From Clostridium sp. JN-9 (GTDB lineage: Bacteria > Bacillota > Clostridia > Clostridiales > Clostridiaceae), in assembly GCF_004103695.1 (NCBI RefSeq), contig NZ_CP035280.1, positions 434,001-498,000 of the forward strand: a stretch of DNA of 64,000 nucleotides. The letters are read 5' to 3'. The notes under the pieces are model-generated. The model saw nothing but the letters and a program-made list of their open reading frames with translations. It had not been told where the DNA came from and ran no database searches. Below, in pieces: positions 8,404 through 63,446 of this stretch (the stretch's first letter is position 1; the number at the start of each line of letters is the position of its first letter). The position numbers and the translations under genes were made by a program.

Positions 8404-8427
8404 AATAATTGAAGGAGGAGTGTAAAA

Positions 8428-9288: not shown

Positions 9289-9296
9289 ATAATAAT

Positions 9297-9340: not shown

Positions 9341-9394
9341 CGATCAAGTATAAAAATTTAATTTAAATATAATATTGAGAAGGGAAAAATAAGA

Positions 9395-16545: not shown

Positions 16546-16767
16546 AAGTATTAATCTGGTTCATTTAATAAGGGGATTATTCTAATTGAGTATGATTCTT
16601 GTTTGAGATGGTAAAGATGCTTACTATACAATTTCATTTAGTAAATCGTTATTTAAACGAGCAAAAATACTGATGCTTTTACAGTTTTTTGGTGGCGAGA
16701 AGATAAGATTGCTGTCAGGTGAGGATTGTATTGATAAAATTATTTAATAACTTACGCCATTTCAAGT

Positions 16768-16805
16768 TTGACTTTTATGCTCACTTATATTAAAATAATG
16801 AGCAT
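16768..16805 (+). promoter_or_regulatory. Promoter and overlapping inverted repeat of the AbiE pair
   Basis: TTGACT (16768-16773), 17 bases, TAAAAT (16791-16796). Inverted arms ATGCTCA (16777-16783) and TGAGCAT (16799-16805) straddle the -10 box, so a bound antitoxin would block RNA polymerase. AbiEi antitoxins are known to repress their own promoter through inverted repeats. The stretch 16546-16767 before it shows only short unassignable coding-like fragments. Confidence 0.65.
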
Positions 16806-16834
16806 AATTGTTTACTCCTGAAAGAAGGTGTATT

Positions 16835-31418: not shown

Positions 31419-31433
31419 AAAGGAGAAATTATT

Positions 31434-32234: not shown

Positions 32235-33021
32235 TAACAAAATGACAAAAAAAGACTTAAGAAATTTAGCTTTCAGGTCAGTTCTTCTTCAATCAGGTTT
32301 TAACTATGAAAGAATGCAAGCTAGCGGCTGGACATATGCTATGCTGCCTTTTTTAAAGAGAATTCATAAAGATGATAAAAAAGCATTGTCAGAATCAATG
32401 CATGATAATCTGGAATTTATTAATACAAATCCTACATTATCTGGATTTTTGATGGGCTTAATAATATCACTTGAAGAAAATAATGAAGACAGAAGCGTTG
32501 TAAAAGGGTTAAAGGTAGCTTTATTTGGACCTTTAGCTGGAATAGGCGATGCTTTACTTTGGTTTACATTATTACCTATAGTTGCAGGCATTTGTTCATC
32601 CTTTGCAATTGAAGGAAGTGTATTAGGACCAATATTATTCTTTGCAGTTTATGTTGGTGTATTTCTTTCACGTATTATATGGACAACAGCAGGATACAAT
32701 CTTGGTGTAAAAGCAATTAATATTTTAAGAGAAAATTCAAAGGCTATTTCAAAGGCAGCTACAATATTAGGAGTAACTGTTATAGGTGGATTAATAGCAT
32801 CTTATGTTCACATAGAGCTTGTTCTTAAAATACCTGTAAGTGCAGGCCATGTAATTTCACTGCAGAAAGATTTTATAGATAAGATACTGCCTAATATACT
32901 GCCTATGGCATATACTTTATTAATGTTCTATCTATTAAAAAAGAAGAACATTAATCCAACAATATTAATACTAATAACCTTTGCCGCTGCTATTCTATTA
33001 TCTTTATTGGGGGTTCTATAA
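32218..33021 (+). CDS. PTS mannose-family EIID component
   Basis: Second membrane subunit. MTKKDLRNLAFRSVLLQSGFNYERMQASGW near the N-terminus (in two adjoining motifs) and ALFGPLAGIGDALLWF are the family signatures; FINTNPTLSGFLMG replaces the FNTEP motif. The protein has 267 residues. The start at 32218 follows AGGAGGCGA inside the IIC gene; the upstream in-frame extension is discarded. Its stop shares one base with the IIA start, so the genes are coupled. Confidence 0.94.
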   Translation: MKTESNNKMTKKDLRNLAFRSVLLQSGFNYERMQASGWTYAMLPFLKRIHKDDKKALSESMHDNLEFINTNPTLSGFLMGLIISLEENNEDRSVVKGLKVALFGPLAGIGDALLWFTLLPIVAGICSSFAIEGSVLGPILFFAVYVGVFLSRIIWTTAGYNLGVKAINILRENSKAISKAATILGVTVIGGLIASYVHIELVLKIPVSAGHVISLQKDFIDKILPNILPMAYTLLMFYLLKKKNINPTILILITFAAAILLSLLGVL

Positions 33022-33461
33022 TGATGAAAACCAATATAATAATAACCGGACACGGAAATTATGCAACAGGGATAGAAAGTTCATTGAAATTATTAGCAGG
33101 GAATAGTGAAGGTGTAGAATTTATCGATTTTCTTGAAGAAGATAATGACACTTCATTAAAAGAAAAAATCTTAAAAGCTGTTTCGAAAAATTCAGATTCA
33201 CAATTTCTATTTGTATGTGATATGGTAGGCGGCACTCCATTTAAGGTATGTGCAATGATTGCCAATAGCTCAGATAATATGGAAGTTGCAGCTGGCTGTA
33301 ATGTAGGGGCCATTTTAGAAGCAGTATTGATAAAAGATACAATGCCTCTAAAAAATCTTGCTGATTCAATCATAGATTCTACTAAGAAAGGGGTTGCCAG
33401 ATTTAAGAAAATTAATGTAAGTAAAATTGATAATAATTTGGATTCGGAAGACGGTATTTAG
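33021..33461 (+). CDS. PTS mannose-family EIIA component (AgaF-like)
   Basis: Phosphocarrier of the second PTS. The active-site histidine lies in IIITGHGNYATGIESSL, the GHG(N/X)(Y/F)A form found in AgaF-type IIA proteins, and FVCDMVGGTPFK is the second conserved loop. It has 146 residues with a charged tail. It starts at the IID stop codon. This operon is followed by a hairpin and then by another complete set starting with its own IIA. Confidence 0.93.
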   Translation: MMKTNIIITGHGNYATGIESSLKLLAGNSEGVEFIDFLEEDNDTSLKEKILKAVSKNSDSQFLFVCDMVGGTPFKVCAMIANSSDNMEVAAGCNVGAILEAVLIKDTMPLKNLADSIIDSTKKGVARFKKINVSKIDNNLDSEDGI

Positions 33462-33582: not shown

Positions 33583-33996
33583 ATGGTTGGAATAATAGCA
33601 ATTTCTCATGGTAACTACGTAAAAGAACTAATAAATTCTGTAGAGTTAATATATGGGAAAATTGATGAAATTGAAGCTATTTGTCTCGAGAAAGCTGAAA
33701 GCATAGAAAGTTTAAATAGTAAGATAGAACTTAAGATTAAAGGGCTTGATGCAGATGAAATCTTAATATTGGTTGATTTGCTTGGAGGAACTCCATATAA
33801 TGCAAGCAGCCTTTGGATGAAAAATCCGAATATCAATGTAGTTACCGGTATAAATATGCCTATGCTGCTAGAAATTCTTCCACATAGAAATGAGGGACTT
33901 ATGAAAGTTTCGAAAATTGCCGAAGAATCAGCAAAAAATGGAATAATTAATGTTGGAGAAAAATATAAAACCTTAAACAAGCCAAAGATAATTTAA
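33583..33996 (+). CDS. PTS mannose-family EIIA component
   Basis: Phosphocarrier domain of the third PTS set. IIAISHGNYVKELINSVE carries the active histidine at residue 8, and ILVDLLGGTPYNASS is the second loop. The protein has 137 residues. A ribosome binding site AGAGGTG precedes the ATG by seven bases. Its presence right after another IIA gene (33021-33461) means two IIA proteins are made by adjacent operons and could cross-phosphorylate. Confidence 0.94.
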   Translation: MVGIIAISHGNYVKELINSVELIYGKIDEIEAICLEKAESIESLNSKIELKIKGLDADEILILVDLLGGTPYNASSLWMKNPNINVVTGINMPMLLEILPHRNEGLMKVSKIAEESAKNGIINVGEKYKTLNKPKII

Positions 33997-34025
33997 GAAT
34001 AATTCATGGAAGGAGAAGAATTACA

Positions 34026-34493
34026 TTGCTCAAAATAGTAAGATTAGACGATAGGTTAGTTCATGGACAGCTATTCAATAATTGGTGTACCTATGAAAAT
34101 ATTACAGAAATATTAGTAGTAAACAAGGAAGTAAACAATAATGAAATAAGAAAAACATTTATAGAAATATCTGCCCCTGAAAACATAAAAATTATATTTT
34201 GTGATGTTTCTAAGGCTCTGGAAATATATGAAGAAGAATGTAAATTTGAGAATGTAATTATTATTTTTGGCAATCCCTTTGAGCTTTTAGAGTTCATTGA
34301 ATATGGTGGGAAAGTAAAAAGCATAAATATAGGTGGAATGTCTTACAAAAAAGATAAAAAAAGAATTAGTACTACATTTTATGTTGACGAAGCTGAACTT
34401 AAGGCTTTAAAAAAAATAGCAGGCTATAATATTGAATTGGAAATAAGGATTCTGCCTACGGATAAAAAAATAGATTTCTTAAAATATTGCTAG
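34026..34493 (+). CDS. PTS mannose-family EIIB component, TTG start
   Basis: Sugar-phosphorylating domain. VRLDDRLVHGQLFNNW carries the active histidine near residue 15, and NIGGMSYKKDKKRIST is the later loop. It has 155 residues. The TTG at 34026 is the only start that keeps the conserved N-terminus, and GGAAGGAGAAG lies upstream. Compared with the other IIB proteins here it is more diverged (for example LFNNWCTYENI after the active site). The next gene begins 17 bases after its stop. Confidence 0.93.
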   Translation: MLKIVRLDDRLVHGQLFNNWCTYENITEILVVNKEVNNNEIRKTFIEISAPENIKIIFCDVSKALEIYEEECKFENVIIIFGNPFELLEFIEYGGKVKSINIGGMSYKKDKKRISTTFYVDEAELKALKKIAGYNIELEIRILPTDKKIDFLKYC

Positions 34494-34510
34494 TGTTAGG
34501 GGAGAACAAT

Positions 34511-36130
34511 ATGTCAATAAAGCAAACCGTACTATTAATTGTTTTCACTTCTATATCTGGAATTGGATCTTCTACAGAAGAATTTCAAACTCACAGGCCA
34601 TTAATTGCGGCTACTTTAATTGGTATAGCACTTGGAGATATAAAAAGTGGAGTAATAGTTGGTTCTCAGATGGAACTCATTGCACTTGGATGGATGACAA
34701 TAGGTGTAGCAACACCCTTAGATGCAACTTTATCATCAATAGTAGCTGCCATATTGGTAATCCTGGGGAAGCAGCAGATAGGTGTGGCAATAGGTATTGC
34801 AGTTCCTTTTAGCGCAGTAGGACAATTAATGTTCATTGTACAAAAAGGAATTATAGATGTAGCAATAATGCATTGGGCAGAAAATGGAGTTGAAAGAGGC
34901 CAATTATGGAAAGTTACAACAGCTCATTTTCTAACGGCAATTCCAAGCATTATAAGAATAACTGTACCTTCTTTAATAGTTGCATATTTTGCAAATATCA
35001 CTTCTATGCGGAATTTCTTAAATTTAATACCTAAGACCATAACAATTGGACTTCAAATTTCTTCAGGTTTTCTAGTTGTGGTGGGTTATGCCATGATACT
35101 TAGGATGCTTAATCAGAAAGAAATGCTGTCATTTTTCTTTATGGGATTTTTGGTAATGACTTTTTCTAATATAACATTGCTGGGACTCACACTTTTAGGC
35201 TTAAGTCTGGCAATGGTATACTATCAGATTTCAAATATGATAGATAAGGGTAATAATAGAAATAGAAGAACTGAAAACAATACTGCTAACTTAGAGAAAA
35301 AAGGCGAAAAAACTAAAATTGAAATAACAAAAAAAGATTTAATGAAGGTATTTTGGAGGAGCCAGTTTTTCCAGCTATCCTGGAACTATGAAAGACTTCA
35401 AAATTTATGTTATTGCTACTGCATTATGCCTATTTTAAAAAAGTTATATAAGCAAAAAGAAGAACTTCAATCAGCTGTAAAGTCTCATCTGGAATATTTT
35501 AATACCCAGCCTTTCTTTTCATCTGCTATTATTGGTGCAGACATAGCTTTTGAGGAAACTATGGTTAATGGGCAAGAGTTTGATACATCTAGTATAGCAC
35601 GGGTGAAATTAGCTTTAATGGGGCCTATGGCAGGCATAGGTGATCCAATAATATGGGGAATAGTTAGACCAGTTACTGCAGCTATTGGTGCTGGTATTGC
35701 ATCTAATGGAAATATATTAGGACCTATATTTTTCTTTGCAGCTATGAATACAGTAAGATTATTTATGAGATATAATGTTTTAATGATTGCATATAGGGAA
35801 GGTACGAATATTATTACTAAACTGAAAGGTATTCTTCCTAAACTAAAAAATTCTATGGCTGTATTAACTTATACAATAATAGGTGGATTAGTTGCAAAAT
35901 GGACGGTTATAAAGGTACCTTTTGTTTTATATTCTATTAACAGCAAAAATGGTGTAATTACTGCTACTGTTCAGCAGCAATTGGATTCTATAATGCCTAA
36001 TATACTACCGCTTATGTTAACCTTTTTTGTATATTGGCTGTTAAAGAAAAAAGTGTCCCCAATGATATGTATGTTTGGATTAATGATTTTAGGAATAGCT
36101 GGATATGCATTAGGATTTTTAGGCTTATAA
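34511..36130 (+). CDS. PTS EIIC-EIID fusion protein
   Basis: One uninterrupted frame of 539 residues joins the two membrane subunits that are separate in the other three PTS loci here. Residues about 1-240 are EIIC (FQTHRPLIAATLIGIALGD, GSQMELIALGWMTIG, LQISSGFLVVVGYAM). A hydrophilic linker of about 35 residues, rich in N, K, E and R, follows. Residues about 275-539 are EIID (ITKKDLMKVFWRSQFF, NYERLQNLCYCYC, EYFNTQPFF, ALMGPMAGIGDPI). The start at 34511 follows TAGGGGAG. It lies between IIB and a HAD phosphatase. I see no stop codon or frame break, so the fusion is real in this sequence. Confidence 0.93.
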   Translation: MSIKQTVLLIVFTSISGIGSSTEEFQTHRPLIAATLIGIALGDIKSGVIVGSQMELIALGWMTIGVATPLDATLSSIVAAILVILGKQQIGVAIGIAVPFSAVGQLMFIVQKGIIDVAIMHWAENGVERGQLWKVTTAHFLTAIPSIIRITVPSLIVAYFANITSMRNFLNLIPKTITIGLQISSGFLVVVGYAMILRMLNQKEMLSFFFMGFLVMTFSNITLLGLTLLGLSLAMVYYQISNMIDKGNNRNRRTENNTANLEKKGEKTKIEITKKDLMKVFWRSQFFQLSWNYERLQNLCYCYCIMPILKKLYKQKEELQSAVKSHLEYFNTQPFFSSAIIGADIAFEETMVNGQEFDTSSIARVKLALMGPMAGIGDPIIWGIVRPVTAAIGAGIASNGNILGPIFFFAAMNTVRLFMRYNVLMIAYREGTNIITKLKGILPKLKNSMAVLTYTIIGGLVAKWTVIKVPFVLYSINSKNGVITATVQQQLDSIMPNILPLMLTFFVYWLLKKKVSPMICMFGLMILGIAGYALGFLGL

Positions 36131-37933: not shown

Positions 37934-38908
37934 ATGATGAACAAAGAAATCTATCTTAAAAATGTGGCTGATAGTCTTGCTTTATTAAGTAAGCAGGTTG
38001 AACTTTTAAATGCTGTAGATCTTTATGACATAAATATTATTGCAGAGGATTTTTTTACAGGTTTACTGAATTTAATATTTGGTTACAAATTAAAAAATAC
38101 AAATGTTGTTGAGAAAAATGCACAAGCTATTGATTTAATAGATGAAGAAAATAAAATTTCAATTCAAGTAACTTCAGATAATTCTAGCACCAAAATAAAA
38201 CATACAATTCATGAATATATTGATAATAAGTCATATGAAAAGTATGATAGATTAATAGTATTAATTTTGACTAGGAAAAAGAAGTATTCAAGGTCATTTG
38301 ATACTAATAATACGTTTGTATTTGATAAGGGAAAAGATATATTAGATATAAAGGACTTAATAAAATCCATAAGAGGATTAGAAATAAAAAAGATAAGAGA
38401 AATTAATGATTTTTTAGAAATGGAATTATGTGATAGGGTATATTCAGCCAAGAAAACACAAGCTAATGAGATAGACACAATCATAGATTTAATTGAATAC
38501 ATATCTAAACATAAGGAAGTTAAAAAGAAAATAGATTCAGAAATTGATCCTGAATATAAAATATTTAAAAGATTTAAGGACTTCTCTGAAAGATTGATAT
38601 CAGAATATACAACACTGTATACTCTGTATGGAGATGCAATTGAGACAATTAATGAAATTATAGGAATAGATGAAGCACAGGATATAATAATAATGTTTTA
38701 TTTACAAGATATAAGTATGCAATTTTTAGATGAAACAAATGATAACCCCATTAAGGCATTGAATAAGCTGGTTGGTTATTTTGAAGATAAGCTAAGTTTA
38801 AATGGTAAAAAATATGATAGGGCGGCCATTAAATTTTATTTAGTTAATGAAATGATAAAATGTAGAGTATTTCCAAATGAAAGGAATGAGTATAATGGTG
38901 GCAAATAG
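37934..38908 (+). CDS. ABC-3C-type conflict system protein with SMEK-like domain
   Basis: First gene of a three-gene cassette. The N-terminal part (residues about 1-160) resembles SMEK domains, with FFTGLLNLIFGYKL and AIDLIDEENKISIQVTSDNSSTKIKHTI; the D...Q-x-T spacing is compatible with a restriction-endonuclease-like fold. The C-terminal half (about 190-324) is helical and of the sort found as the C-terminal domain of ABC-three-component proteins. It has 324 residues and a start after GGGAGAG. The small second gene overlaps its end. It is predicted to be the effector that is held in check by the ATPase pair; the enzymatic activity is unproven. Confidence 0.72.
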   Translation: MMNKEIYLKNVADSLALLSKQVELLNAVDLYDINIIAEDFFTGLLNLIFGYKLKNTNVVEKNAQAIDLIDEENKISIQVTSDNSSTKIKHTIHEYIDNKSYEKYDRLIVLILTRKKKYSRSFDTNNTFVFDKGKDILDIKDLIKSIRGLEIKKIREINDFLEMELCDRVYSAKKTQANEIDTIIDLIEYISKHKEVKKKIDSEIDPEYKIFKRFKDFSERLISEYTTLYTLYGDAIETINEIIGIDEAQDIIIMFYLQDISMQFLDETNDNPIKALNKLVGYFEDKLSLNGKKYDRAAIKFYLVNEMIKCRVFPNERNEYNGGK

Positions 38909-39122
38909 TAATAGTGTTAAGTCATCAGCAATGTATATTGGTTACCTTATACTAAAGGAAATCAAGGAGAAAAATTCGGAAAAAGTATCTATATATGACG
39001 TTTCAAGGATTCTTAAAAAGAAAGGAATAAACAGTAGTAGGCAATTAGTACTAGCCCTTTCTTTCCTATACTCTGTTGATATAGTGGAGTTTGAGGAGGC
39101 GAATGTATGGATAAAGAAGTAA
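38895..39122 (+). CDS. Small middle component of ABC-3C-like system
   Basis: A 75-residue protein encoded between effector-like and ATPase genes, overlapping both (14 bases with the first, 16 with the next). It looks like a small winged helix: MYIGYLILKEIKEKNSEKVSIYDVSRILKKKG in two helices, then INSSRQLVLALSFLYSVDIVEFEEANVWIKK. Small middle components of this kind are a defining part of ABC-3C cassettes. The start at 38895 is preferred because AAAGGA lies nine bases upstream; ATG 38877 and 38886 are alternatives. Confidence 0.7.
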   Translation: MVANSNSVKSSAMYIGYLILKEIKEKNSEKVSIYDVSRILKKKGINSSRQLVLALSFLYSVDIVEFEEANVWIKK

Positions 39123-40864
39123 ATAGAATTCGCATTAACAAACTTTATTCAGAAAATAATATTTTTGACGAAATAGAATTTCGTGATGGTGTAAATATTA
39201 TTTTGGGTGAAAAATATGATAATTCAACAATAAAGGGAAGAAAAACAAATGGTGTAGGAAAATCTATGAGCATTGAATTTTTGGATTTTTGCTTATTGAG
39301 TGATTATGAAAAATCTAGAATATGCAGAATACCTAAAGAAGTAATGCCATTAGAAGAAAAAATAATGTTAGATTTAGAAATTGGGAAAGAAGAAATTACA
39401 ATAAAACGAAGCCGAAAGGACTCTGAACAACCCGTTATAATAAGAAATGAGAAAAAGGTTTCTTTTGAAAAATTAGATGATGCACGTAATTACCTAGCGG
39501 AACTAATTTTTGCAAAATTAGATGGGAACAGTGTGCCAAGTTTTAGAAATTTATTCTCAATATTGATGAGAGATGAACGTTCGGAATTTACTGATATCTT
39601 AAAATGTCATGATTTATCTAAGCGTGTGCCAGATGATTTGACAGCACATTTATTTCTACTTGGAATGCCAGTTGAGTCTTATAGGAAAAGTATTAAGACA
39701 ATTAAAGAAATTGAAAGTATAACAACTATTATATCAAAAAATAAGAAAGAGCTGACAAATAATGGACAGAAAAAAATAGCTGATGTTAAAGCAGAATTAA
39801 ACTCCCTTGATGATGAATTAAATAAAATGGAAGCTGCTATAGAAAGTTTTAAAAGTAATGAAGCTTTTTATTCAATGGAATCAGAGCTGCTAGAATTAGA
39901 AACATTACTTGAACAGCTAAGAAAAAAACAAAAAGCATTAAGATATGATTATGATAAAATTAAAAGAATGCCAAAGCCCGAAGCAATAGATGATAACGAG
40001 ATTGAACTAGTGTATAATCAATTTAAGAATGATTTGGGAAGTGCGATTGTTAAGTCCCTTGATGAAGTAGTTGGCTTTAAGAATAAGGTTGAAGAATTTC
40101 AACGTATGCTTGTGAATCAGAAAGCAAAGGAACTTGAAATACAACTGAATGACATTGCAGAGCAAATTCGTGTTTTAGATGATGAGTATTCAGAAAAAAT
40201 GAAAATTATTGATGAAAAAGGTGTATTAAAGAATTTAAAAGCTAGTTTAAAGATATATGAAAGTAAAAAGGATTCTTGTGCACATACAAAGTTTCTTTTT
40301 GAACAGTATGAAAAAAATGCGAAAACAAAAAAAACATTAAAATTACGTAAAACACAAGAAATATTAGAGATAGATACTATTCTTGAGGAAAAAGAGGATA
40401 TAATAAATAAATTTATTAATACCTTACTTGATATTCATGAAGCTATTATGGGAAATAAGGAGTGCTCATTTACAATCCAGACTTTAGATAATGCTAGAAG
40501 TAAAACACCAGCTGAAATCAGCATGAGGATATACGATGATGGTAGCAGAAGTGTAAATAGGACCAAAGTTTTTATTTATGATATGGCGTTATTATTTAAT
40601 GATAATACTAGGAAGAGGCATCCTCTATTTTTAGTTCATGATAATATTTTTGATGTTGATCAGGATACGTTAGTTCAATGCCTAAATTATTTAAATAAAC
40701 AAGAAGAAAAGTATCAGGATTTTCAATATATATTAACTTTAAATAGAGATAAAATAGAAAACGAAGAACGTATAAAATTAATAAATATGGATATTGATAG
40801 TCATAGAGTAGCTGTTTATACAAAGGAAAATAAATTCTTAAAAAAGGATTATCAAGAAATATAA
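39107..40864 (+). CDS. DUF2326-type SMC/RecF-like ATPase of ABC-3C system
   Basis: A 585-residue ATPase with split ABC halves. The N-terminal half has INKLYSENNIFDEIEFRDGVN and Walker A GRKTNGVGKS near residue 50; a long coiled coil spans about 200-430 (EIESITTIISKNKKEL, DDELNKMEAAIES, QKAKELEIQLNDIAEQ); the C-terminal half has the signature region and Walker B HPLFLVHDNIFD near 510. This is the layout of DUF2326 proteins, the ATPase of ABC-three-component conflict systems. GAGGAGG precedes the ATG. It probably senses a DNA or phage cue and licenses the upstream effector, by analogy with published predictions for such cassettes. Confidence 0.8.
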   Translation: MDKEVNRIRINKLYSENNIFDEIEFRDGVNIILGEKYDNSTIKGRKTNGVGKSMSIEFLDFCLLSDYEKSRICRIPKEVMPLEEKIMLDLEIGKEEITIKRSRKDSEQPVIIRNEKKVSFEKLDDARNYLAELIFAKLDGNSVPSFRNLFSILMRDERSEFTDILKCHDLSKRVPDDLTAHLFLLGMPVESYRKSIKTIKEIESITTIISKNKKELTNNGQKKIADVKAELNSLDDELNKMEAAIESFKSNEAFYSMESELLELETLLEQLRKKQKALRYDYDKIKRMPKPEAIDDNEIELVYNQFKNDLGSAIVKSLDEVVGFKNKVEEFQRMLVNQKAKELEIQLNDIAEQIRVLDDEYSEKMKIIDEKGVLKNLKASLKIYESKKDSCAHTKFLFEQYEKNAKTKKTLKLRKTQEILEIDTILEEKEDIINKFINTLLDIHEAIMGNKECSFTIQTLDNARSKTPAEISMRIYDDGSRSVNRTKVFIYDMALLFNDNTRKRHPLFLVHDNIFDVDQDTLVQCLNYLNKQEEKYQDFQYILTLNRDKIENEERIKLINMDIDSHRVAVYTKENKFLKKDYQEI

Positions 40865-54540: not shown

Positions 54541-54558
54541 ACAAAAAGATATACAAAA

Positions 54559-54586
54559 ACTGCCTGTCCCACTTAGGACAGGCAGT
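54559..54586. terminator. Bidirectional terminator between converging genes
   Basis: ACTGCCTGTCC (54559-54569) pairs exactly with GGACAGGCAGT (54576-54586) around six bases. A-rich bases to the left and T-rich bases to the right let it act in both directions. Confidence 0.9.
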
Positions 54587-54605
54587 TGTATATAATAAAT
54601 ATTAT

Positions 54606-55280
54606 TTAGTCTTTTAAGCTATTAAATTCAGAAATTATTTTAACACTATTACTTGTACCAATTCTTTCAGCTCCAGCTTTAAGAAATTTGTATACCATAT
54701 CAAGGGATCTTATTCCGCCAGCCGCTTTTATTTTTATATCTTTTTCAGTATTGTTTCTCATTAAAATTACATCTTCAATAGTAGCTCCACCACTACCAAA
54801 TCCTGTAGAAGTTTTTATAAAGTCGGGTTTAACTTTATTTGCTATTTCGCAAAGCTTAATTTTTTCTGTTTCATTTAAATAACAGTTCTCAAAAATCACT
54901 TTACTTGTAACTTCATAATTCCTGCAAATATCTACTATACTTTCCATTTCATTTTTAATATAATCGTAATTTCTATTTTTCACTTCAGCTATATTAATAA
55001 CATAATCAACTTCACCAGCACCCTTATTTATGGCATCTTTTGTTTCAAAAAGTTTTGTCTGAAGAGTACATTGCCCCAGTGGAAAGCTTACTGCCGCGTC
55101 TATTAATATTTCCGAATTATATAAGTACTTTTTAGCTTTTTCAATGTTTGAATTATTAATTGCAACTGTTTTAAAATTATATTTTATTGCTTCATTACAG
55201 AGAGCTTTTATGCTTTCTTCATCGGCATATGGCTTTAGCAGCGTATGATCAAAGAGTTTAGAAAAATTATCAATATTCAA
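54606..55280 (-). CDS. deoC: Deoxyribose-phosphate aldolase
   Basis: Class I aldolase splitting 2-deoxyribose 5-phosphate into acetaldehyde and glyceraldehyde 3-phosphate. The catalytic lysine is in DFIKTSTGFGSGGATIEDV near residue 150; FDHTLLKPYA at the N-terminus and VSFPLGQ near 65, GEVDYVINI near 92 and IKAAGGIRSLDMV near 185 are family motifs. It has 224 residues, normal length. Last gene of a leftward operon after a TIM-barrel isomerase, GntR regulator and phosphomannose-isomerase-like gene. Its place in a sugar operon suggests that the pathway passes through a 2-deoxy or related aldol substrate. Confidence 0.95.
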   Translation of the reverse strand: MNIDNFSKLFDHTLLKPYADEESIKALCNEAIKYNFKTVAINNSNIEKAKKYLYNSEILIDAAVSFPLGQCTLQTKLFETKDAINKGAGEVDYVINIAEVKNRNYDYIKNEMESIVDICRNYEVTSKVIFENCYLNETEKIKLCEIANKVKPDFIKTSTGFGSGGATIEDVILMRNNTEKDIKIKAAGGIRSLDMVYKFLKAGAERIGTSNSVKIISEFNSLKD

Positions 55281-55285
55281 GTTAG

Positions 55286-56167
55286 TCAGTCCTTTCTATG
55301 AATATTTAAAATTTTATTTAAGTTTTCCATACTTTTTATAACATTATTGTAATCAACTTCTGGCTCTAGGCTTACAGAACCTGAATATTCAAGTAAGTTT
55401 AATTCTCTAAATAAGTCTTTAAAATCTATATTGCCTTCGCTAAATGTTATATGTGAAAATTTATTATTTTCTTTTATATAATCTTTTAAATGAACATGCC
55501 CTATACATTTGAATATAGTTTCTAATTCCTCGTGAAGAGAAACATTTCTATAATCCACAGGAAGCTTATCTATGGGAGCTCTAAAACTATTTCCAATATC
55601 CCATAATAATTTCAAATTAGGACTATTAATATTATCAATTACTTTTTTTGTCATTATACCTTTAGGTAAATGTGTATAGGGACAGTTTTCCAAAACTAAA
55701 GTTATATCCATTTCTTTGGCTAATCTTGAAGGTAACATTAGTTTTTCTGTAATGAGCTTAATGTCTTCATCTGTGCCTACTACTTTCTTTGCTTCGGATG
55801 CTCTGAAGGGAAATAATCTAACATATTTTGCATTTAATTTTTTTGCAGTTTCACAAGTCCTTTTTAATTTTTCTATATGATCTTCGTAATTACCTTGTGT
55901 AACTAGGAAAGTTGATTTGAAATTTTTAATTTCATAATTAGGATATAATGGACACATAAAAAATAAAGTAGAACTTAAACAGGATACTTCTAAATTATAC
56001 TTTCTTAAAAGCTTTAAAACTGTGTTTATTTCTTCATTGCTTAATTCTTCAATGGTTTTTCCCCAGAGGGAATGAATTTCTATATATTTATATCCATGAT
56101 TTACAATGTCAATTAAAGCTTTCTCAAAATCCATATTTAACTGATCAGTAATAATAGATTTAAACAT
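55286..56167 (-). CDS. Sugar phosphate isomerase/epimerase (xylose-isomerase-like TIM barrel)
   Basis: A 293-residue TIM-barrel enzyme of the AP-endonuclease-2/xylose-isomerase superfamily. Metal-binding positions are visible in TLVLENCPYTHLP, KLLWDIGNSFRAP, GHVHLKDYI and VSLEPEVDYNN, in the right order. The N-terminal HGYKYIEIHSLWG begins the barrel. A short GGAGA ribosome binding site precedes the ATG. It lies between GntR and DeoC and probably interconverts the ketose and aldose forms of the imported sugar phosphate; the sugar is unknown. Confidence 0.88.
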   Translation of the reverse strand: MFKSIITDQLNMDFEKALIDIVNHGYKYIEIHSLWGKTIEELSNEEINTVLKLLRKYNLEVSCLSSTLFFMCPLYPNYEIKNFKSTFLVTQGNYEDHIEKLKRTCETAKKLNAKYVRLFPFRASEAKKVVGTDEDIKLITEKLMLPSRLAKEMDITLVLENCPYTHLPKGIMTKKVIDNINSPNLKLLWDIGNSFRAPIDKLPVDYRNVSLHEELETIFKCIGHVHLKDYIKENNKFSHITFSEGNIDFKDLFRELNLLEYSGSVSLEPEVDYNNVIKSMENLNKILNIHRKD

Positions 56168-56197
56168 AATAATCTCCTTAATTAAAATAAATTAGTA

Positions 56198-56932
56198 TTA
56201 GTTTTCTTTATTTTCAATTTCTATATAGTATTCATATCTATCTGCTATATAATAGCTGATAGTATATTCGATTACATTATTATTTGTATCAAAGGATTGC
56301 CTTTTTAAAATTAGAATAGGTTCACCCACTCTAATGTTCAGAAGCTGACTTAATCTGCTATCTGCTATTGAAGCAGAAATACGCTGATTAACCTTTTTAA
56401 TTTTAATACCTTTGTTTTTATCTAAATATTCGTATAAAGAGCCATAATAGATTGTATTGTCTAGATCCATATTTATATTTTTCTTTATATAAGTTTCAAA
56501 TAAAACAATAGGAAGATTGTTTGCAGTACGTATTCTAGTAAGTTTATAAGCTTCGTCGCCATCATTTTGCAGTAAATACTTTGAGATTTCACCAAAAGAT
56601 TTAGTTATTACAATTTTAGCGCTTTTGGTTGAGGGGGTAATCCCGCGATCTTTCATTTCATCTGTAAAACTTTTAATTCTAATAAGTGGTTCTTCAATTT
56701 TAGGTGGTAAAATAATGGTTCCTTTTCCTCTTATTCGTTTAACATATCCTTTTAATACAAGTTCATTAATTGCTTGTCTTACGGTAATTCTACTGAGATT
56801 GTATTTTTCAATATAATCGAGTTCCTTTGGAAGCATATCACCTGGCTTGTATATGTCACTTAGTATTTCACTTTCCATTATTTCAGCTAATTGCAAATAT
56901 AAAGGTTTAGCTCCCTTACTTTTATCAAACAT
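56198..56932 (-). CDS. GntR/HutC-family transcription regulator
   Basis: A 244-residue regulator. The N-terminal winged helix has LYLQLAEIMESEILSDIYKPGDMLP, SRITVRQAINELVLKGYVKRIRGKGT, and the C-terminal UTRA sensor domain has ARI/SFTDEMKDRGITPSTK, IVLFETYI and EYTISYYIADRYEY. The ATG at 56932 has GGAGGG upstream; TTG 56944 would place the ribosome binding site inside the gene. UTRA domains bind sugar phosphates. Candidate operators are the ATATGT-N4-ACATAT palindromes at 58725 and 58926. Confidence 0.92.
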   Translation of the reverse strand: MFDKSKGAKPLYLQLAEIMESEILSDIYKPGDMLPKELDYIEKYNLSRITVRQAINELVLKGYVKRIRGKGTIILPPKIEEPLIRIKSFTDEMKDRGITPSTKSAKIVITKSFGEISKYLLQNDGDEAYKLTRIRTANNLPIVLFETYIKKNINMDLDNTIYYGSLYEYLDKNKGIKIKKVNQRISASIADSRLSQLLNIRVGEPILILKRQSFDTNNNVIEYTISYYIADRYEYYIEIENKEN

Positions 56933-56946
56933 TTTACCCTCCAAAA

Positions 56947-58680
56947 CTATCTTACATAAGCTTTAATGGTAGCAATTTTTTTACCTTCTGATATTCCATA
57001 GGGCCTAATTGTATATTCTTCAACACATGCTGGAATTATAAAGGTTTCTGCATAATGCACAATAAAAGGCTTAAATTTTCCAGTTGGACTTTCAACTATT
57101 GCTTCTTCCCCATCAATTAAGTTTAACATATTTACACTTCCATTTGTATTATGATGAACTGTTTTATTAAACCAATGACGTCTTGTTTCAATAAATTCTC
57201 TTTCGTGTAAGCCGGTTTTTTCTTCTATCCATCCATCACCTTCTCCAATTACTTCTACTTTATTAATTAAGTTTTCTTTTACCCAGCTGGTAGTTCTATT
57301 CCACTGTATTACCTTTGCACCATGCTCTATGTGAATGGGTCTTGGCTGCCCATCAAGACCAACTCTTGCCCAATCCCATAATTTAAAAGTAAATATGTAT
57401 GGAGTTGCACTTATTTCTAAAACCATTGTATTGGCCCCAGAGCAGTGGATTGTACCAGCAGGTATTAAAAAGTGGTCGTGTTTTTTTGCAGGGAAACTAT
57501 TTATATATTTTTCGTCTTCAAAAATAGTTTCTCCTCTGTTAGCTCTTTTTAAATCTTCTAACATCTCATTTTTGTCAATATTTTCTTTTGTGCCTAGGTA
57601 TACATGGGCTCCTTCTTTTGCATCTAAAATATAATAACTTTCATCTTGTGTATAATGCATACCAAAATTGTCTTGAATATATTCTGTTAAAGGATGTACC
57701 TGGAGTGATAAATTTTGTCCTCCCATAGTATCCAGAAAATCAAATCTGATAGGAAACTCTGTGCCAAAACGACCGTGGACTCGTTCCCCAAGTAACTTTT
57801 CAGGCTCATAAAATACTACATTTATTGATGGAATTTCTACTCTTATATTACCATATCTTAAGTATAAACTATTTTCTTCAGGTACTCCGTCAAAACTCCA
57901 TGCAAAATTAGGTTTGCTTTTGTCTAGATCGCAGACCTTTTTCATCCATTGTCCTCCCCATACCCCTGGATCAAAATAAGGAACAACTCTAAAGGGTCTT
58001 TGTGCTGTCTGACTAAGACCTTCTATAAAGGCTTTACCTGTTATCATCTTAGGTTTATCTTCAATATTAGTATCAAGAAGATAATCCAAGCTATCATATA
58101 AATCTTTTTTATGCCTGTCTGCAGCACGCCATTCTACAAAATATCCTCTTTTATACTTAGATAGTATGGGATCGTTATAATTTTTCATCTTCCAATTAGG
58201 CATACCATTTCTATAACGCATTTGTATTTCCCAGCGGGCAAGGTCTGCGTATATTAATATATCTCCTTTAGTAATTAAAGAAGCACCTACACCATAGATT
58301 AAAATAACTCCATTCTTAACAGAATTGATTTTAACTCTGGCATTATCTATTTTTTCTTTAACAAAGAATTCATTCAGTTTCTTTGTTGATAATACTCCAA
58401 AGACTCTGTCATCTGTAAGGGAGTCTTTAATCATATCAGTTATAACTGCACCATCATAGGAACAATCATCAGAATTTATTATTAATACAGGATGCAATTG
58501 ACTGAAAGCATTTAATATTTCATTTTCCCGAACACCAGGGTAGCAATCTATAACTATAATAGATTTACCTTTATTATTTATATCTTTACTAATTTTATTA
58601 ATTATATCAGAATAACCTTCCCATGCTGATTCATCAAATCCATTTATTTTGACTTCAGGAAATTTATCATAATTACACAT
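56947..58680 (-). CDS. Class I phosphomannose-isomerase-like protein with N-terminal extra domain
   Basis: A 577-residue protein, almost twice the usual ManA length. The C-terminal part (about 205-577) is a cupin-type isomerase with RVVPYFDPGVWGGQW, NLSLQVHPLTEY, DESYYILDAKEGAHVYLG and IPAGTIHCSGANTMVLEIS, containing the zinc-binding Q-x-H, E and H. The first 200 residues look like a degenerate P-loop kinase fold (SIIVIDCYPGVRENEI in place of a GK[ST] loop, LIYADLARWEIQMRYRNGMPNW). First gene of the leftward operon; divergent from the PTS operon. It may act as a sugar isomerase or as a binding protein coupled to a degenerate nucleotide-binding domain. Confidence 0.82.
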   Translation of the reverse strand: MCNYDKFPEVKINGFDESAWEGYSDIINKISKDINNKGKSIIVIDCYPGVRENEILNAFSQLHPVLIINSDDCSYDGAVITDMIKDSLTDDRVFGVLSTKKLNEFFVKEKIDNARVKINSVKNGVILIYGVGASLITKGDILIYADLARWEIQMRYRNGMPNWKMKNYNDPILSKYKRGYFVEWRAADRHKKDLYDSLDYLLDTNIEDKPKMITGKAFIEGLSQTAQRPFRVVPYFDPGVWGGQWMKKVCDLDKSKPNFAWSFDGVPEENSLYLRYGNIRVEIPSINVVFYEPEKLLGERVHGRFGTEFPIRFDFLDTMGGQNLSLQVHPLTEYIQDNFGMHYTQDESYYILDAKEGAHVYLGTKENIDKNEMLEDLKRANRGETIFEDEKYINSFPAKKHDHFLIPAGTIHCSGANTMVLEISATPYIFTFKLWDWARVGLDGQPRPIHIEHGAKVIQWNRTTSWVKENLINKVEVIGEGDGWIEEKTGLHEREFIETRRHWFNKTVHHNTNGSVNMLNLIDGEEAIVESPTGKFKPFIVHYAETFIIPACVEEYTIRPYGISEGKKIATIKAYVR

Positions 58681-58724
58681 TTTTCCACCGTCTCCTTTGT
58701 TATCACTTTTGATATAATATTATC

Positions 58725-58944
58725 ATATGTTATAACATATTGCAATATACAATGTAAATATACTGAATAAACCATAATGCCATTTTAAGTATGTTATAAT
58801 ATAACTTAAATAATCAATGCTAAGTGTAATATGTATGTAAAGCTAAAAAAAGTATTGACAACATTTACACTACAGTTTTATAATAAAAATATAGTAAAAC
58901 TTAAAAATAACAAATTCATAATGCAATATGTAATTACATATTGC
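58725..58944. promoter_or_regulatory. Divergent promoter region with palindromic operators
   Basis: Rightward promoter: TTGACA (58855-58860), 18 bases, TATAAT (58879-58884). Palindromes: ATATGTTATAACATAT (58725-58740, perfect), an imperfect TATGTTATAATATA-centred repeat (58786-58808), and a 22-base perfect palindrome (58923-58944) with core ATATGTAATTACATAT. The first and last share ATATGT-N4-ACATAT, lying near the leftward gene start and downstream of the rightward -10. They are candidate sites for one of the two GntR regulators. Confidence 0.75.
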
Positions 58945-58986
58945 AGCATGGTTTGTAAATTATTTCTATGAAAGGGGGAAAACTAA

Positions 58987-59418
58987 TTGGTTGGAATAGT
59001 AATTGCAACTCATGGAGATCTTGCAAATGGTTTTATGGACTCCATCAATATTATTATGGGTTCACCGGAAAATATATCTGTGGCAACACTGAAAAATGAC
59101 AAAGGAATAGAAGGATTTAATGTAGAATTAAGGGCATCCTTAAATAATGTTATATCAGATGATGGTATCCTTATTTTGTCAGACATTAAAGGAGGGACCC
59201 CGTATAACAGCAGCTGTTACTATGCTGGAAACGGAGAATTTAATGTAAATATAAAAGTGGTAAGTGGGATTAATTTACCAATGCTTTTAGAGGTACTGTC
59301 TATGAGGGAACATTCTAATTTAGATGAACTCGTAAAAATAGCATTAAATGCGGGAATAACAGGAATAGACATTCCAACACCTGTAGATGGATCTTTAGAG
59401 TATGAAGATGAATTATAA
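58987..59418 (+). CDS. PTS mannose-family EIIA component, TTG start
   Basis: Phosphocarrier of the fourth PTS. GIVIATHGDLANGFMDS carries the active histidine near residue 9, and ILILSDIKGGTPYNSS the second loop. It has 143 residues. The TTG at 58987 lies nine bases after GAAAGGGGG and gives the conserved N-terminus. First gene of the rightward operon with a sigma-A promoter, unlike the two sigma-54-driven PTS operons. Confidence 0.93.
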   Translation: MVGIVIATHGDLANGFMDSINIIMGSPENISVATLKNDKGIEGFNVELRASLNNVISDDGILILSDIKGGTPYNSSCYYAGNGEFNVNIKVVSGINLPMLLEVLSMREHSNLDELVKIALNAGITGIDIPTPVDGSLEYEDEL

Positions 59419-59441
59419 TTTGATTTAGGAGGAGAAATATT

Positions 59442-59933
59442 ATGGCAGTTACATTCGTAAGAGTAGACGACAGAGTAATACATGGTCAAGTATTAACACA
59501 GTGGACTAGGGTATATCCTTGTAATGGAATTATTGTAGTTAATGATAACTTAGCAAATAATGCTTCTTTGGGTAATGTTTATAGAGGTGCAGCACCATCA
59601 GGAATCAGGGTATATATTTATACATTAGAAAAGGCATTAACAAAATTAATTGAAGCAATAAATAGTTCAAAGAAGTATTTTTTAATAACTAAGTCACCAG
59701 TTGAATTAAATAAGTTAGCTGAAAATGGCATTGATTTTGGAAAGCATATTATTTATGGGCCATCAAGCTATAGGGACGATACTATAACTATTGGACCAAA
59801 TCAGTGTTTACTAAAAGAAGAAATGGATGCTTGTGAAGCGCTTTATAACAAACATATTGAAATTGAATTCAAACTCACTCCAGATAAAAGAGGATTTAAA
59901 TGGAGTGATATAAGAAATAAATATTATAAATAA
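59442..59933 (+). CDS. PTS mannose-family EIIB component
   Basis: Sugar-phosphorylating domain of 163 residues. VRVDDRVIHGQVLTQWTRVY carries the active histidine near residue 14. The later loop is KHIIYGPSSYRDDTITIGPNQ instead of the GGM-type loop of the other IIB proteins, so it is a distinct subfamily. AGGAGG precedes the ATG by eight bases. It is followed after 11 bases by IIC. Confidence 0.93.
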   Translation: MAVTFVRVDDRVIHGQVLTQWTRVYPCNGIIVVNDNLANNASLGNVYRGAAPSGIRVYIYTLEKALTKLIEAINSSKKYFLITKSPVELNKLAENGIDFGKHIIYGPSSYRDDTITIGPNQCLLKEEMDACEALYNKHIEIEFKLTPDKRGFKWSDIRNKYYK

Positions 59934-59944
59934 GGAGGGTTAAT

Positions 59945-60748
59945 ATGTTTTTTCAAGCTTTACTAATCGGATTATTTTGTTATCTTGCTAGTTTAGGTGT
60001 GCCATGGTTTTTTGGTACAACAGGTGGATTTTATTATCTAAGCAGGCCACTTATTTCAGGTATGATTGTAGGACTTATCCTGGGGGACATGAAAACAGGT
60101 ATTTTAATTGGTGCTGCTGTACAGGCCTTATACCTTTCATTAATAGTGCCAGGTGGAGTGGCATCAGCCGATATTACTTATGTTGCTTATCCAGCAATAG
60201 CCCTTGCCATGCTTTCAAAAGCTAATTCAGATTTTGCAGTTTCTCTTGCTGCTACAATTGGATTGCTTGGAGTAATATTATTTAATTTAATAGAAACAAT
60301 AAATACATTCTGGAATCATGTAGCCGATAAATATGCTGATAAAAATGACATGAAAGGTTTTTGGAGAGCAAATGCATTGTATCCACAAATTACAACGTTT
60401 ATAATAAGATTTGTACCAACCTTTTTAGCAGTATATTTTGGAGCACAATATGCCCAAAGCTTTATGAATTATATACCTGAGGTTCTAAAACATATCATGA
60501 CAGTACTTGGAGGAGTATTACCTGCAGTAGGAATAGGACTGTTATTGAGCCAGATTATGAAGAAAACTTCGCTTACTGTATATTTCCTTGTAGGATTTGT
60601 ATGTATAGTTTCATTAAAATTAAACATGATTTCACTAACTATAGTTGGAGCTGCTTTAGCAGTTATGCATTTTAACTACTCAGGGAACAATATGCCACCA
60701 TCACCAGCTAAAAATGCTGCAGTGAATGATGATGAGGAGGTGCTGTAA
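59945..60748 (+). CDS. PTS mannose-family EIIC component
   Basis: Membrane channel subunit of 267 residues. YYLSRPLISGMIVGLILGDMKT near 29-50, GAAVQALYLSLIVPGGVASADIT near 56-78 and GGVLPAVGIGLLLSQI near 190 are the EII-Sor motifs. It has a short hydrophilic C-terminus. AAGGAGG precedes the ATG. Its stop codon shares one base with the IID start. The sequence is about as different from the other three IIC proteins as they are from one another, suggesting separate substrates. Confidence 0.94.
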   Translation: MFFQALLIGLFCYLASLGVPWFFGTTGGFYYLSRPLISGMIVGLILGDMKTGILIGAAVQALYLSLIVPGGVASADITYVAYPAIALAMLSKANSDFAVSLAATIGLLGVILFNLIETINTFWNHVADKYADKNDMKGFWRANALYPQITTFIIRFVPTFLAVYFGAQYAQSFMNYIPEVLKHIMTVLGGVLPAVGIGLLLSQIMKKTSLTVYFLVGFVCIVSLKLNMISLTIVGAALAVMHFNYSGNNMPPSPAKNAAVNDDEEVL

Positions 60749-61575
60749 TGAGTGAAAAAAATAAGGATTTTAAAAAGAAGCTAACTAAAAAGGATTTAAA
60801 TAAAAGCTGGTTTTCATGGATACTCTTTAATTTATCTGCCATAAGTTTTGAAAGACTTGAAGGTACCTCATTTGGGCAATCAATGATTCCAATAATAAAT
60901 AGATTATATGATAGTAAAGAAGAAAGAGGAAAGGCTTTAAGAAGACATACTGTATTCTATAATACTGAACCACAGTTAGGATCAGTTGTAAATGGTATAG
61001 TTGCAGGGCTTGAAGAAGCAAAAGCTAATGGCCAGCCAGTACAAGATGAATTGATTGAAGGCATAAAAGTAGGACTTATGGGACCAATTGCAGGTGTTGG
61101 TGATGTGCTTATTCAAGGTATTACTGTACCATTACTATTGAGTATTGGTATGGGACTAGCTGCAAATGGAAGTATTTTAGGACCATTATTTTATACATTT
61201 ACCTGGATTCCATTATGTCTTCTAGTATCTTACTTCTTATATATGAAAGGCTATAGCCTTGGTGTAGATGCAGTAGATATTATTATAGGTGAAAAAGCCA
61301 ATAAACTTACTGAAGCATTTAAGATTTTAGGAATTACTGTAATGGGTGGAATTGCTGCAAGTTTTGTTAATTTGAATGTTGTTGCAGTATTCAATAATGG
61401 AAAAACTGTACTTGATTTTCAAAAATTAATTAATGGTATTTTCCCTAAATTATTACCGCTTATTATAACTTTATTTGCATGGAAGGCGCTTCAAAGAAAG
61501 AATATGACTCCTTTAAAATTAATGGGTTTATTTTTAGTAATTTGTGTTGCCGGGGTATTAATAGGAATATTCTAG
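60748..61575 (+). CDS. PTS mannose-family EIID component
   Basis: Second membrane subunit of 275 residues: KLTKKDLNKSWFSWILFN, FERLEGTSFGQSM, FYNTEPQLGSVVNG and GLMGPIAGVGDVLIQG are the EIID motifs in order. It ends with membrane segments and is followed by a hairpin. GAGGAGG lies in the end of IIC. It completes the rightward PTS set. Confidence 0.94.
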   Translation: MSEKNKDFKKKLTKKDLNKSWFSWILFNLSAISFERLEGTSFGQSMIPIINRLYDSKEERGKALRRHTVFYNTEPQLGSVVNGIVAGLEEAKANGQPVQDELIEGIKVGLMGPIAGVGDVLIQGITVPLLLSIGMGLAANGSILGPLFYTFTWIPLCLLVSYFLYMKGYSLGVDAVDIIIGEKANKLTEAFKILGITVMGGIAASFVNLNVVAVFNNGKTVLDFQKLINGIFPKLLPLIITLFAWKALQRKNMTPLKLMGLFLVICVAGVLIGIF

Positions 61576-61587
61576 TTTGTTTATGAA

Positions 61588-61619
61588 AACACCTTCAATT
61601 ATATTAAATTGAAGGTGTT
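61588..61619 (+). terminator. Hairpin after the PTS genes, before manA
   Basis: AACACCTTCAATT (61588-61600) pairs with AATTGAAGGTGTT (61607-61619) around six bases. The following bases are AAATTTATTTT, only moderately T-rich, so partial termination is likely and would lower manA relative to the transport genes. Confidence 0.7.
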
Positions 61620-61643
61620 AAATTTATTTTGATTGGAGGAATA

Positions 61644-62585
61644 ATGTTGTATCCTATGAAGTTTGAGCCAATTTATATTAAAAAAATATGGGCAGGAAAT
61701 AAGCTTAAAAAAATGAGACCAGCAAATTTAGAGGAATCTATAGGTATAAGCTGGGAAATAAGCGGGCACAAAAATGCTTTAACCAAGGTAAGCAATGGTA
61801 AATATAAAGGATTAAATCTAAAAGAATTAGTTCAAATGGATAAAACTAAAATGCTGGGTAAAAATGTCGATGAATCAGAAATATTGAGGGTAGCATATCT
61901 TGATGCAGCAGATGACCTTTCAATACAGGTTCATCCAACAGATGATTTTTCAAGGATACATGAGAATGATGGCGGGAAAACCGAGGCTTGGTATATACTT
62001 GAAGCTGATGAAGGAGCTTATATCACCGCTGAAACTACAGTTGACAATATAGATGTTATAAAGCAGGCTTTGAAAAAAGATAAATTAGAAGATTATGTGA
62101 TGAAAATTCCTGTGAAAAAAGGGGACTTTGTTATGATACCAGCAGGCCTTATCCATGCACTGGGGAAGGGTATTTTAGCAATTGAAATTGGTCAGAACAG
62201 TGATATAACCTATAGATTATATGATTATAACAGGGGTAGAAAATTAGATATAGAAAAATCATTTTCTGTTTTAGATCCCAAATTAAAATGTGAAAAATGT
62301 GAAATGGGAGAGCATTCATCACAGCATGGTAAGAAATATAAAAAGAGTATTTGCTTTAAAAGAAAAGAATTTGCATTAGAGGTAATAGATATAAACAGTG
62401 AATATGAGGATATTGCAAACGGTGAAAGATATCATATTTATTCATGTGTAGCAGGAAGATGTATAATTGAATTTAATTCAGGAAATGAAATATTAAATTA
62501 TGGAGAAAGTGTTTTTATTCCTGCAAAAATGGGAAACTACAAAATCAAAGGTACATGCCGTGTGTTAAAAAGCTATATCCCATAA
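61644..62585 (+). CDS. manA: Mannose-6-phosphate isomerase, class I (short type)
   Basis: Zinc enzyme interconverting mannose 6-phosphate and fructose 6-phosphate, or a relative acting on another sugar phosphate. MLYPMKFEPIYIKKIWAGNKL, LSIQVHPTDDF (Q-x-H), GKTEAWYILEA (E) and IPAGLIHALGKGILAIEIG (H) contain the zinc ligands. It has 313 residues, the normal Firmicute length. The ATG at 61644 follows TTGGAGGA. It gives the locus a second, conventional isomerase in addition to the long protein at 56947-58680. Confidence 0.92.
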   Translation: MLYPMKFEPIYIKKIWAGNKLKKMRPANLEESIGISWEISGHKNALTKVSNGKYKGLNLKELVQMDKTKMLGKNVDESEILRVAYLDAADDLSIQVHPTDDFSRIHENDGGKTEAWYILEADEGAYITAETTVDNIDVIKQALKKDKLEDYVMKIPVKKGDFVMIPAGLIHALGKGILAIEIGQNSDITYRLYDYNRGRKLDIEKSFSVLDPKLKCEKCEMGEHSSQHGKKYKKSICFKRKEFALEVIDINSEYEDIANGERYHIYSCVAGRCIIEFNSGNEILNYGESVFIPAKMGNYKIKGTCRVLKSYIP

Positions 62586-62651
62586 TTATGGAAGAGTTAA
62601 TTTTAGAAACATAAATGATAAATATGATGAGTTAAACTGTAGGAAAATTAT

Positions 62652-63446
62652 TTGATTGGAGAGATAGCCATAAGCATTAATAAACTTAAATTAGATAAAA
62701 GCAGTTCAGTACCATTATATCTTCAGCTGCAGAATTTTATTATCGAAGATATAAAAGCTGGTCAGATTAGGGAAGGTGATATGCTTCCCACTGAAATTGA
62801 ATTAAGTGAGGAGTTAGAAATTAGTAGACCTACAGTTCGTCAAGCTTTGAATAATCTTGTAAATGAAGGATATATATATAGAATAAAAGGCAGGGGTACT
62901 TTTGTAAAAAGACCAAAAATCGTTCAAGGATATACAAGCTTTATAGAAAGCTATACTGTGGATATGCGCAAAAAAGGATTTAGAACAAAAACTAAAGTTC
63001 TAGCACTTGATGTTATTGAAGCAGATGAAATTATTTCCACAAAGCTGCAGATAAAAAGAGATGATAAAGTAGTTAAGTTAAAAAGACTGAGGTTTGCTTC
63101 ACCTATGAATGAAAAAGAAAATAATCGTGGGGAAGATAAGCCTGTATTAGTTACTGTTGTATATGTACCTTATAAGCTACTTCCCGAGCTAGTATGCTAT
63201 GATTTTGAAGTGTTCTCTTTCTATGAGGTTTTAGACAAAAATAATCTTTCCGTTAAAAAAGTTAAAAGAGAGATAGAAGCGAAATTAGCAGATGAAGAAA
63301 TAGCTAAGTTACTGAAAATTGAGAAAGGGGACCCTATACATTTTATTACTTCTGTTGGTTTCCTTGAAAATAATGTACCTATAGAATATTCTGAAAGTAT
63401 TTATCCTGGGGAAAGAAATAAATTTGTTATAGAAATTTCCAGGTAA
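62652..63446 (+). CDS. GntR/HutC-family transcription regulator
   Basis: A 264-residue regulator. The winged helix has PLYLQLQNFIIEDIKAGQIREGDMLPTEIELSEELEISRPTVRQAL in consecutive parts, then GRGTFVKRPK, and the UTRA domain has SYTVDMRKKGFRTKTK, VTVVYVPY and PIEYSESIYPGERNKF. The TTG at 62652 is the only start upstream of the conserved part; AGGAAAA lies eight bases before it. It shares the winged-helix pattern with the GntR at 56198-56932 but is clearly different. It may sense the same or a later sugar phosphate. Confidence 0.9.
   Translation: MIGEIAISINKLKLDKSSSVPLYLQLQNFIIEDIKAGQIREGDMLPTEIELSEELEISRPTVRQALNNLVNEGYIYRIKGRGTFVKRPKIVQGYTSFIESYTVDMRKKGFRTKTKVLALDVIEADEIISTKLQIKRDDKVVKLKRLRFASPMNEKENNRGEDKPVLVTVVYVPYKLLPELVCYDFEVFSFYEVLDKNNLSVKKVKREIEAKLADEEIAKLLKIEKGDPIHFITSVGFLENNVPIEYSESIYPGERNKFVIEISR

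Follow-up and report, generated by a model that had tools for sequence, protein, structure and literature searches.

An island of ten genes in Clostridium sp. JN-9 joins a DeoC-family aldolase to a mannose-family phosphotransferase system (Man-PTS) in two divergent operons. It lies in a stretch of 64,000 nucleotides (NZ_CP035280.1, positions 434,001 to 498,000; the whole stretch is hereafter the window) of a genome that consists of a single 3.22-Mb contig and is the sole representative of its genus among the genomes compared. We judge it fairly likely that the island forms a single hexose regulon, running from PTS import through cleavage by DeoC, with predicted enzymatic steps, substrate and site-binding regulator. 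Recurrence of this gene partnership in further bacteria, and on plasmids that can be transferred, makes a genuine, as yet uncharacterised route of sugar breakdown probable. By its residues, the DeoC is a divergent paralogue and not an ordinary deoxyribose-phosphate aldolase (DERA), and belongs to a subfamily with alanine in place of Cys47.

The minus-strand operon has the order longPMI-GntR1-TIM-DeoC, where longPMI is a phosphomannose isomerase (PMI)-like protein, GntR1 a regulator and TIM a TIM-barrel enzyme, the last two genes being spaced by 5 bp. A gap of 306 bp separates it from the plus-strand operon, IIA-IIB-IIC-IID-ManA-GntR2. An open reading frame (ORF) check of the window found all ten genes open and in place (Table 1) and, longPMI apart, with matching family profiles, including PF00392 and PF07702 in both GntR regulators, so that the gene list of an earlier note on this DNA was correct.

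The sequence of the gap suggests that a single DNA signal controls both operons. The palindrome TATGTWATWACATA had two matches in the 3.22-Mb genome, both inside the 306-bp gap and one ahead of each operon, compared with no genome match for the reversed-pattern control. No paper joining the sequence TGTAATTACA with GntR was found in the literature searched.

The gene arrangement is not due to chance, as its conservation in a second genus shows. Maledivibacter halophilus (locus L089) has all ten genes in identical order and orientation, with identities of 73% for longPMI, 54% for TIM, 72% for DeoC, 81% for IIC, 80% for IID and 57% for ManA. The neighbours of subfamily deoC genes were then examined at 91 loci, which gave an FGGY kinase at 32, at least three Man-PTS subunits at 12, a Fru-family PTS at 7 and ManA without PTS at 2. 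A gene of the ManA cluster was present at 8 of the 12 Man-PTS loci (9 of 12 when the gamma-type ManA of Gilliamella is counted) compared with 2 of the 79 loci without Man-PTS, and the metal-ligand motifs were intact in all ManAs of this shared cluster. L166 (L. kimbladii) was rejected as a Man-PTS locus, having an orphan IIA only.

The core motif, with at most one mismatch and within 200 bp ahead of deoC, was found at 8 of 11 Man-PTS loci, where shuffles expect 0.23, and at 7 of 77 other loci. By class, it was present at 5 of 32 FGGY loci (two of the five from the same species), at 1 of 36 others and at none of the 7 Fru-PTS loci. It also preceded IIA at 10 of the 14 loci having this gene, and the loci with the motif before deoC and/or IIA came from Enterococcus, Zophobihabitans, Weissella, Sporolactobacillus and Clostridium. 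The enrichment ahead of deoC in Man-PTS compared with other loci gave a Fisher p of 1e-5, which overstates the significance because the loci are not phylogenetically independent.

The survey for the same gene set that the earlier note had proposed returned the full island in M. halophilus and a minimal cassette (PTS, ManA, DeoC, GntR) on lactobacillus plasmids. The latter, ManA-IID-IIC-IIB-IIA / deoC-GntR, is 5.36 kb long and 99.8% identical between conjugative plasmids of L. plantarum and L. paracasei; the paracasei copy is flanked by IS6-family transposases, the annotated manA reading frame of the L. plantarum copy is shorter (693 bases), and partial copies occur on Pediococcus plasmids. No core motif was found on the lactobacillus plasmid copies at the same stringency (at most one mismatch). 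Considering the operator-like sites common to the deoC and PTS operons, the synteny, the recurring partnership and the plasmid cassettes, the DeoC is part of a sugar regulon and not a stray salvage gene, in agreement with its grouping with the PTS as one sugar-catabolic unit in the earlier note.

In the IID tree, the window and M. halophilus pair, L035/L040 and the Enterococcus/Orbaceae set grouped in a single clade, which excluded the other three Man-family PTS of the window (support 98/97). In contrast, the DeoCs of the Man-PTS loci were not one clade and were spread over separate parts of the tree (approximately unbiased test, p 9e-5); being long branches, L139 and L155 were omitted from the careful tree. 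Therefore, the pairing of DeoC with the transporter arose, or DeoC was replaced, more than once.

These three other PTS lie upstream (6649-9288, 30948-33461 and 33583-36130), so that the PTS of the island is indeed the fourth in the 64 kb; in the third, stretches homologous to IIC and IID are contained in one 547-aa ORF (34487-36130). The island shares IIA, IIB, IIC, IID and a class I PMI with mannose-family PTS having ManA in general, and has as its own the IIB clade features (GP-loop and W..+K.KY tail), the GntR neighbours and DeoC. The GPSSYRDD loop of IIB, described before as unusual, is not so for this PTS: YGPSSYR is typical of the clade, with GPSSYRKK in M. halophilus and GPMNTR or GPQSAR in relatives.

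The window DeoC scored 230 bits against TIGR00126 (EC 4.1.2.4), for a cut-off of 117, and retains the IKTSTGF motif and residues K156, K185, D92 and K127. Its A40 aligns with Cys47 of E. coli DeoC, the numbering of which, used below, follows what we take to be the reference sequence and was checked at the key residues. When genomes of bacteria and archaea were scanned with the subfamily alignment, 494 relatives matched, of which 80 were kept, and 84 rows were aligned. The Cys47 position was Ala in 84/84 rows, compared with Cys in 8/8 of the housekeeping clostridial DeoCs taken for comparison. Position 103 was Tyr in 84/84 rows, and most rows had Ala at 72 and 73 (T72A, V73A) and Asn at 142; Lys167, Lys201, Asp102, Lys137 and Phe76 were invariant and Leu20 nearly so. 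The subfamily has in common with DERA the fold family, the Schiff-base lysine, the second lysine, the catalytic aspartate and the L20/F76 pocket residues, and differs by the above substitutions and by its place in sugar operons instead of nucleoside salvage. Of the description as a true DERA, the catalytic residues and the lysine of FIKTSTGF stood, whereas the ordinary DERA identity did not, given the change of Cys47 to Ala and the other fixed changes. A separate deoC of ordinary housekeeping type is present in the same genome (G000:C1:1441179), and its product is 41% identical to the window DeoC. The subfamily signature was absent from the five best-matching Protein Data Bank (PDB) sequences, no characterised member of the subfamily was found, and the Superficieibacter deoC had no DNA match in E. 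coli genomes.

Cys47 is conserved in 91% of 3700 DeoC orthologues and reported as non-essential for catalysis (PMC6016325), so its loss alone is no proof of a new substrate. Mutations of the L20/F76 donor gate broaden the donor range of DERA (PMC11821518), and a simple widening of this gate was rejected because both residues are unchanged here. Acetaldehyde cannot be assumed as the C2 product, because the subfamily has several fixed differences, including that of Cys47 to Ala. We tentatively propose, as a possibility that may well not hold, that the Ala47 subfamily is a functionally distinct aldolase for a non-2-deoxy hexose or ketose phosphate; on this view, an undescribed route leads in the island from a PTS hexose through isomerisation and epimerisation to aldol cleavage. 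At L081-L086 and at the FGGY loci among L091-L165, subfamily DeoCs have another setting, a second unexplained pathway: they stand with an FGGY kinase, a zinc dehydrogenase and SMP-30-like proteins, and sometimes also with radical-SAM activase and glycyl-radical-like genes.

The C-terminal half of longPMI matched B. subtilis ManA (1qwr; E 6e-12, residues 226-455), and this PMI-like half keeps the Zn-ligand motifs LSLQVHP, DESYY and GTIH, plus R439, in alignment with ManA and 1qwr. The protein had no Pfam or NCBIfam profile match at E ≤ 0.01 (PF20511, 13 bits for a cut-off of 22), no relative was found for its N-terminal ~220 aa, and an AlphaFold2 (AF2) model from two sequences reached a predicted local distance difference test (pLDDT) score of 31. 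It is also present elsewhere without PTS. The window ManA keeps the Zn-ligand motifs LSIQVHP, TEAWY, IHA and YDYNR. A "second ManA" had been said to follow the PTS, and its position is right; the count has to be corrected to three PMI-type proteins in the genome, since a further ManA lies ~82 kb upstream of the island ManA.

For TIM, the metal ligands predicted by motif are E160, D190, H226 and E268. Its best score against curated equivalogs of named epimerases was 42 bits, for cut-offs of 200 or more, and its AF2 model (pLDDT 80) gave Z scores of 26-22, tied among UlaE, Art22, tagatose/psicose 3-epimerases (DTE) and xylose isomerases. TIM is a rare protein: other than the window's own, 391 genomes of the class gave no match above 33% identity, and the neighbours at 27-33% identity (L046, L067-L069) were set aside as generic, uninformative sugar isomerases. 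A single-protein contig scan gave no match despite the 54% identical M. halophilus orthologue, which is a limit of the pattern method.

Taken together, a scheme of import, isomerisation and cleavage is plausible. The Man-PTS would import and phosphorylate mannose or a rare hexose close to it, ManA and longPMI would interconvert the aldose-6-phosphate and the ketose-6-phosphate, and TIM would probably epimerise a ketose phosphate. The aldolase might then split one phosphorylated sugar to a glycolytic triose or tetrose phosphate and a small aldehyde or ketone, and the GntR/UTRA repressors, acting at ATGTWATWACAT sites, would switch both operons together. ManA-type aldose-ketose isomerases need a C2 hydroxyl. 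Therefore, a 2-deoxy sugar, also suggested by the earlier note, fits poorly and is the weaker form of the proposal, mannose or a rare hexose fitting better. Restriction of the DeoC to a nucleoside-derived substrate, named there as contrary to the route, is unlikely, given the regulon membership.

Several observations weigh against this hexose regulon. L035 and L040, from the family of the window, share longPMI, the PTS and the operator-like motif; L035 has both GntRs as well, and L040 one of them. Where the island has ManA, TIM and DeoC, these loci carry two cupin-type glucose-6-phosphate isomerase genes. Subfamily DeoCs are also found beside FGGY kinases, with Fru-family PTS or alone, so their substrate need not be a PTS hexose. 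Finally, plain mannose needs ManA alone, leaving DeoC and TIM without an obvious task. The island could be a plain mannose one, in which PTS and ManA (with longPMI) give fructose 6-phosphate from mannose and DeoC and TIM play an auxiliary part, acting for instance on deoxy or damaged sugars that occur alongside. Mannose growth of Gilliamella depends on the manA of such a cluster (PMC5090037), a phenotype that would in part amount to the plain-mannose induction regarded by the earlier note as contrary to its route, and longPMI stands elsewhere near GH38-type alpha-mannosidases, as read by eye. However, separate lineages and small plasmid cassettes keep DeoC together with PTS and ManA, in many cases with the same operator-like motif, which is unexpected for a gene without a role, and we regard this explanation as rather unlikely.

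A rare hexose of the D-allose/D-allulose type, taken by the PTS to its 6-phosphate, by a ManA-type isomerase to the ketose phosphate and then by a C3-epimerase (TIM; RPE-type elsewhere) and DeoC, seems less probable still. Three C3-epimerase-type families recur near subfamily DeoCs, namely D-psicose 3-epimerase equivalogs (L094, L101 and the clustered L153), RPE-type (L061, L108) and AP_endonuc_2 (window, L089, L108), but few of the 91 loci have such an enzyme, and TIM matches 3-epimerases and xylose isomerase-like folds equally well. The K. pneumoniae psicose locus has an allulose-6-phosphate 3-epimerase with an annotated deoxyribose-phosphate aldolase (PMC6020474); the latter is so named by annotation and is at most a candidate member of the Ala47 subfamily. 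Least probable of all is a PTS for 2-deoxyribose (or a 2-deoxy-hexose), the import product of which would be cleaved directly by DeoC to glyceraldehyde 3-phosphate (or erythrose 4-phosphate) and acetaldehyde. The TIGR00126 score far over its cut-off would suit it, as would the Weissella and Zophobihabitans loci, which have PTS, DeoC and GntR without a nearby ManA and count against the hexose regulon as well. Nevertheless, ManA-type isomerases accompany DeoC in most Man-PTS loci, and C47A, T72A, V73A, Y103 and N142 separate the protein from ordinary DERA.

Searches of the literature on DeoC with Man-PTS, FGGY kinase, ManA or rare sugars gave no paper on the module beyond the Gilliamella and Klebsiella leads. 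In Gilliamella, the manA required for growth on mannose has PTS EIIA-D and an "aldolase" as its neighbours, in the stretch from PDH to RF1 (PMC5090037). L142 shows this PDH-RF1 layout with a subfamily DeoC as the aldolase (8929-9699), by which the "aldolase" of Gilliamella would be a DeoC-family protein. The Gilliamella apicola region has Man-PTS EIIA-D, aldolase and manA together, as in the island, and differs in having no longPMI, no TIM, one GntR and a manA of gammaproteobacterial type. In the K. pneumoniae D-psicose locus, where a permease mutant has a psicose phenotype (PMC6020474), the annotated DeoC likewise adjoins a ketohexose-phosphate C3-epimerase; the locus has a permease and a ribokinase-type kinase instead of the PTS, its epimerase is RPE-type, and no ManA is reported.

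Because they score well above the curated DeoC cut-off, subfamily proteins are likely to be named deoxyribose-phosphate aldolase, although their genes are part of sugar operons and are carried by conjugative plasmids of food lactobacilli. If the substrate is a hexose or ketose phosphate, this common annotation would be wrong and a sugar pathway of gut, bee and food bacteria would have been overlooked. By means of the small plasmid cassette, the question can be put to a direct test in ordinary lactobacilli.

Table 1 Genes and predicted signals of the island (window positions)
Feature	Position	Strand	Remarks
Intrinsic terminator-like hairpin closing the DeoC operon	54558..54587	-	13-pair stem, loop 4, T tail; scan overall not above shuffles
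DeoC-family class I aldolase, Cys47-to-Ala subfamily, TTG start	54606..55280	-	TIGR00126
TIM-barrel (AP_endonuc_2) sugar isomerase/epimerase (TIM)	55286..56167	-	PF01261, 103 bits
GntR/UTRA regulator 1 (GntR1)	56198..56944	-	PF00392, PF07702
longPMI, phosphomannose-isomerase-like, 577 aa	56947..58680	-	1qwr match in C-terminal half
Operator-like palindrome TATGTTATAACATA ahead of the longPMI-GntR1-TIM-DeoC operon	58726..58739		match to TATGTWATWACATA
Consensus promoter TTGACA-18-TATAAT ahead of the PTS operon	58855..58884	+	12/12 positions; promoter-like sites overall not above shuffles
24-bp perfect palindrome TGCAATATGTAATTACATATTGCA, just downstream of the TTGACA-18-TATAAT promoter	58922..58945		contains second operator-like site
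Man-family PTS IIA	58987..59418	+	PF03610 over cut-off
Man-family PTS IIB	59442..59933	+	PF03830 over cut-off
Man-family PTS IIC	59945..60748	+	PF03609 over cut-off
Man-family PTS IID	60748..61575	+	PF03613 over cut-off
Class I mannose-6-phosphate isomerase (ManA)	61629..62585	+	TIGR00218, 126 bits, cut-off 116
GntR/UTRA regulator 2 (GntR2)	62652..63446	+	PF00392, PF07702

Elsewhere in the window, two large LevR-type sigma-54 activator-like regulators with AAA and PRD-like parts, recognised by eye, lie ahead of PTS 1 (3305-5986) and PTS 2 (28110-30860). PTS 1 is followed by a glycerol-1-phosphate dehydrogenase-like protein and a HAD phosphatase (9395-11613), an odd pairing for a PTS, and an AbiEi/AbiEii toxin-antitoxin-like gene pair was read by eye at 16808-18264. 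Additionally, a pair of genes for 324-aa and 585-aa proteins (37934-40864) is also found in L039, a genome of the same family (14987-17917), ~2 kb from longPMI, and perhaps marks a shared integration hotspot.

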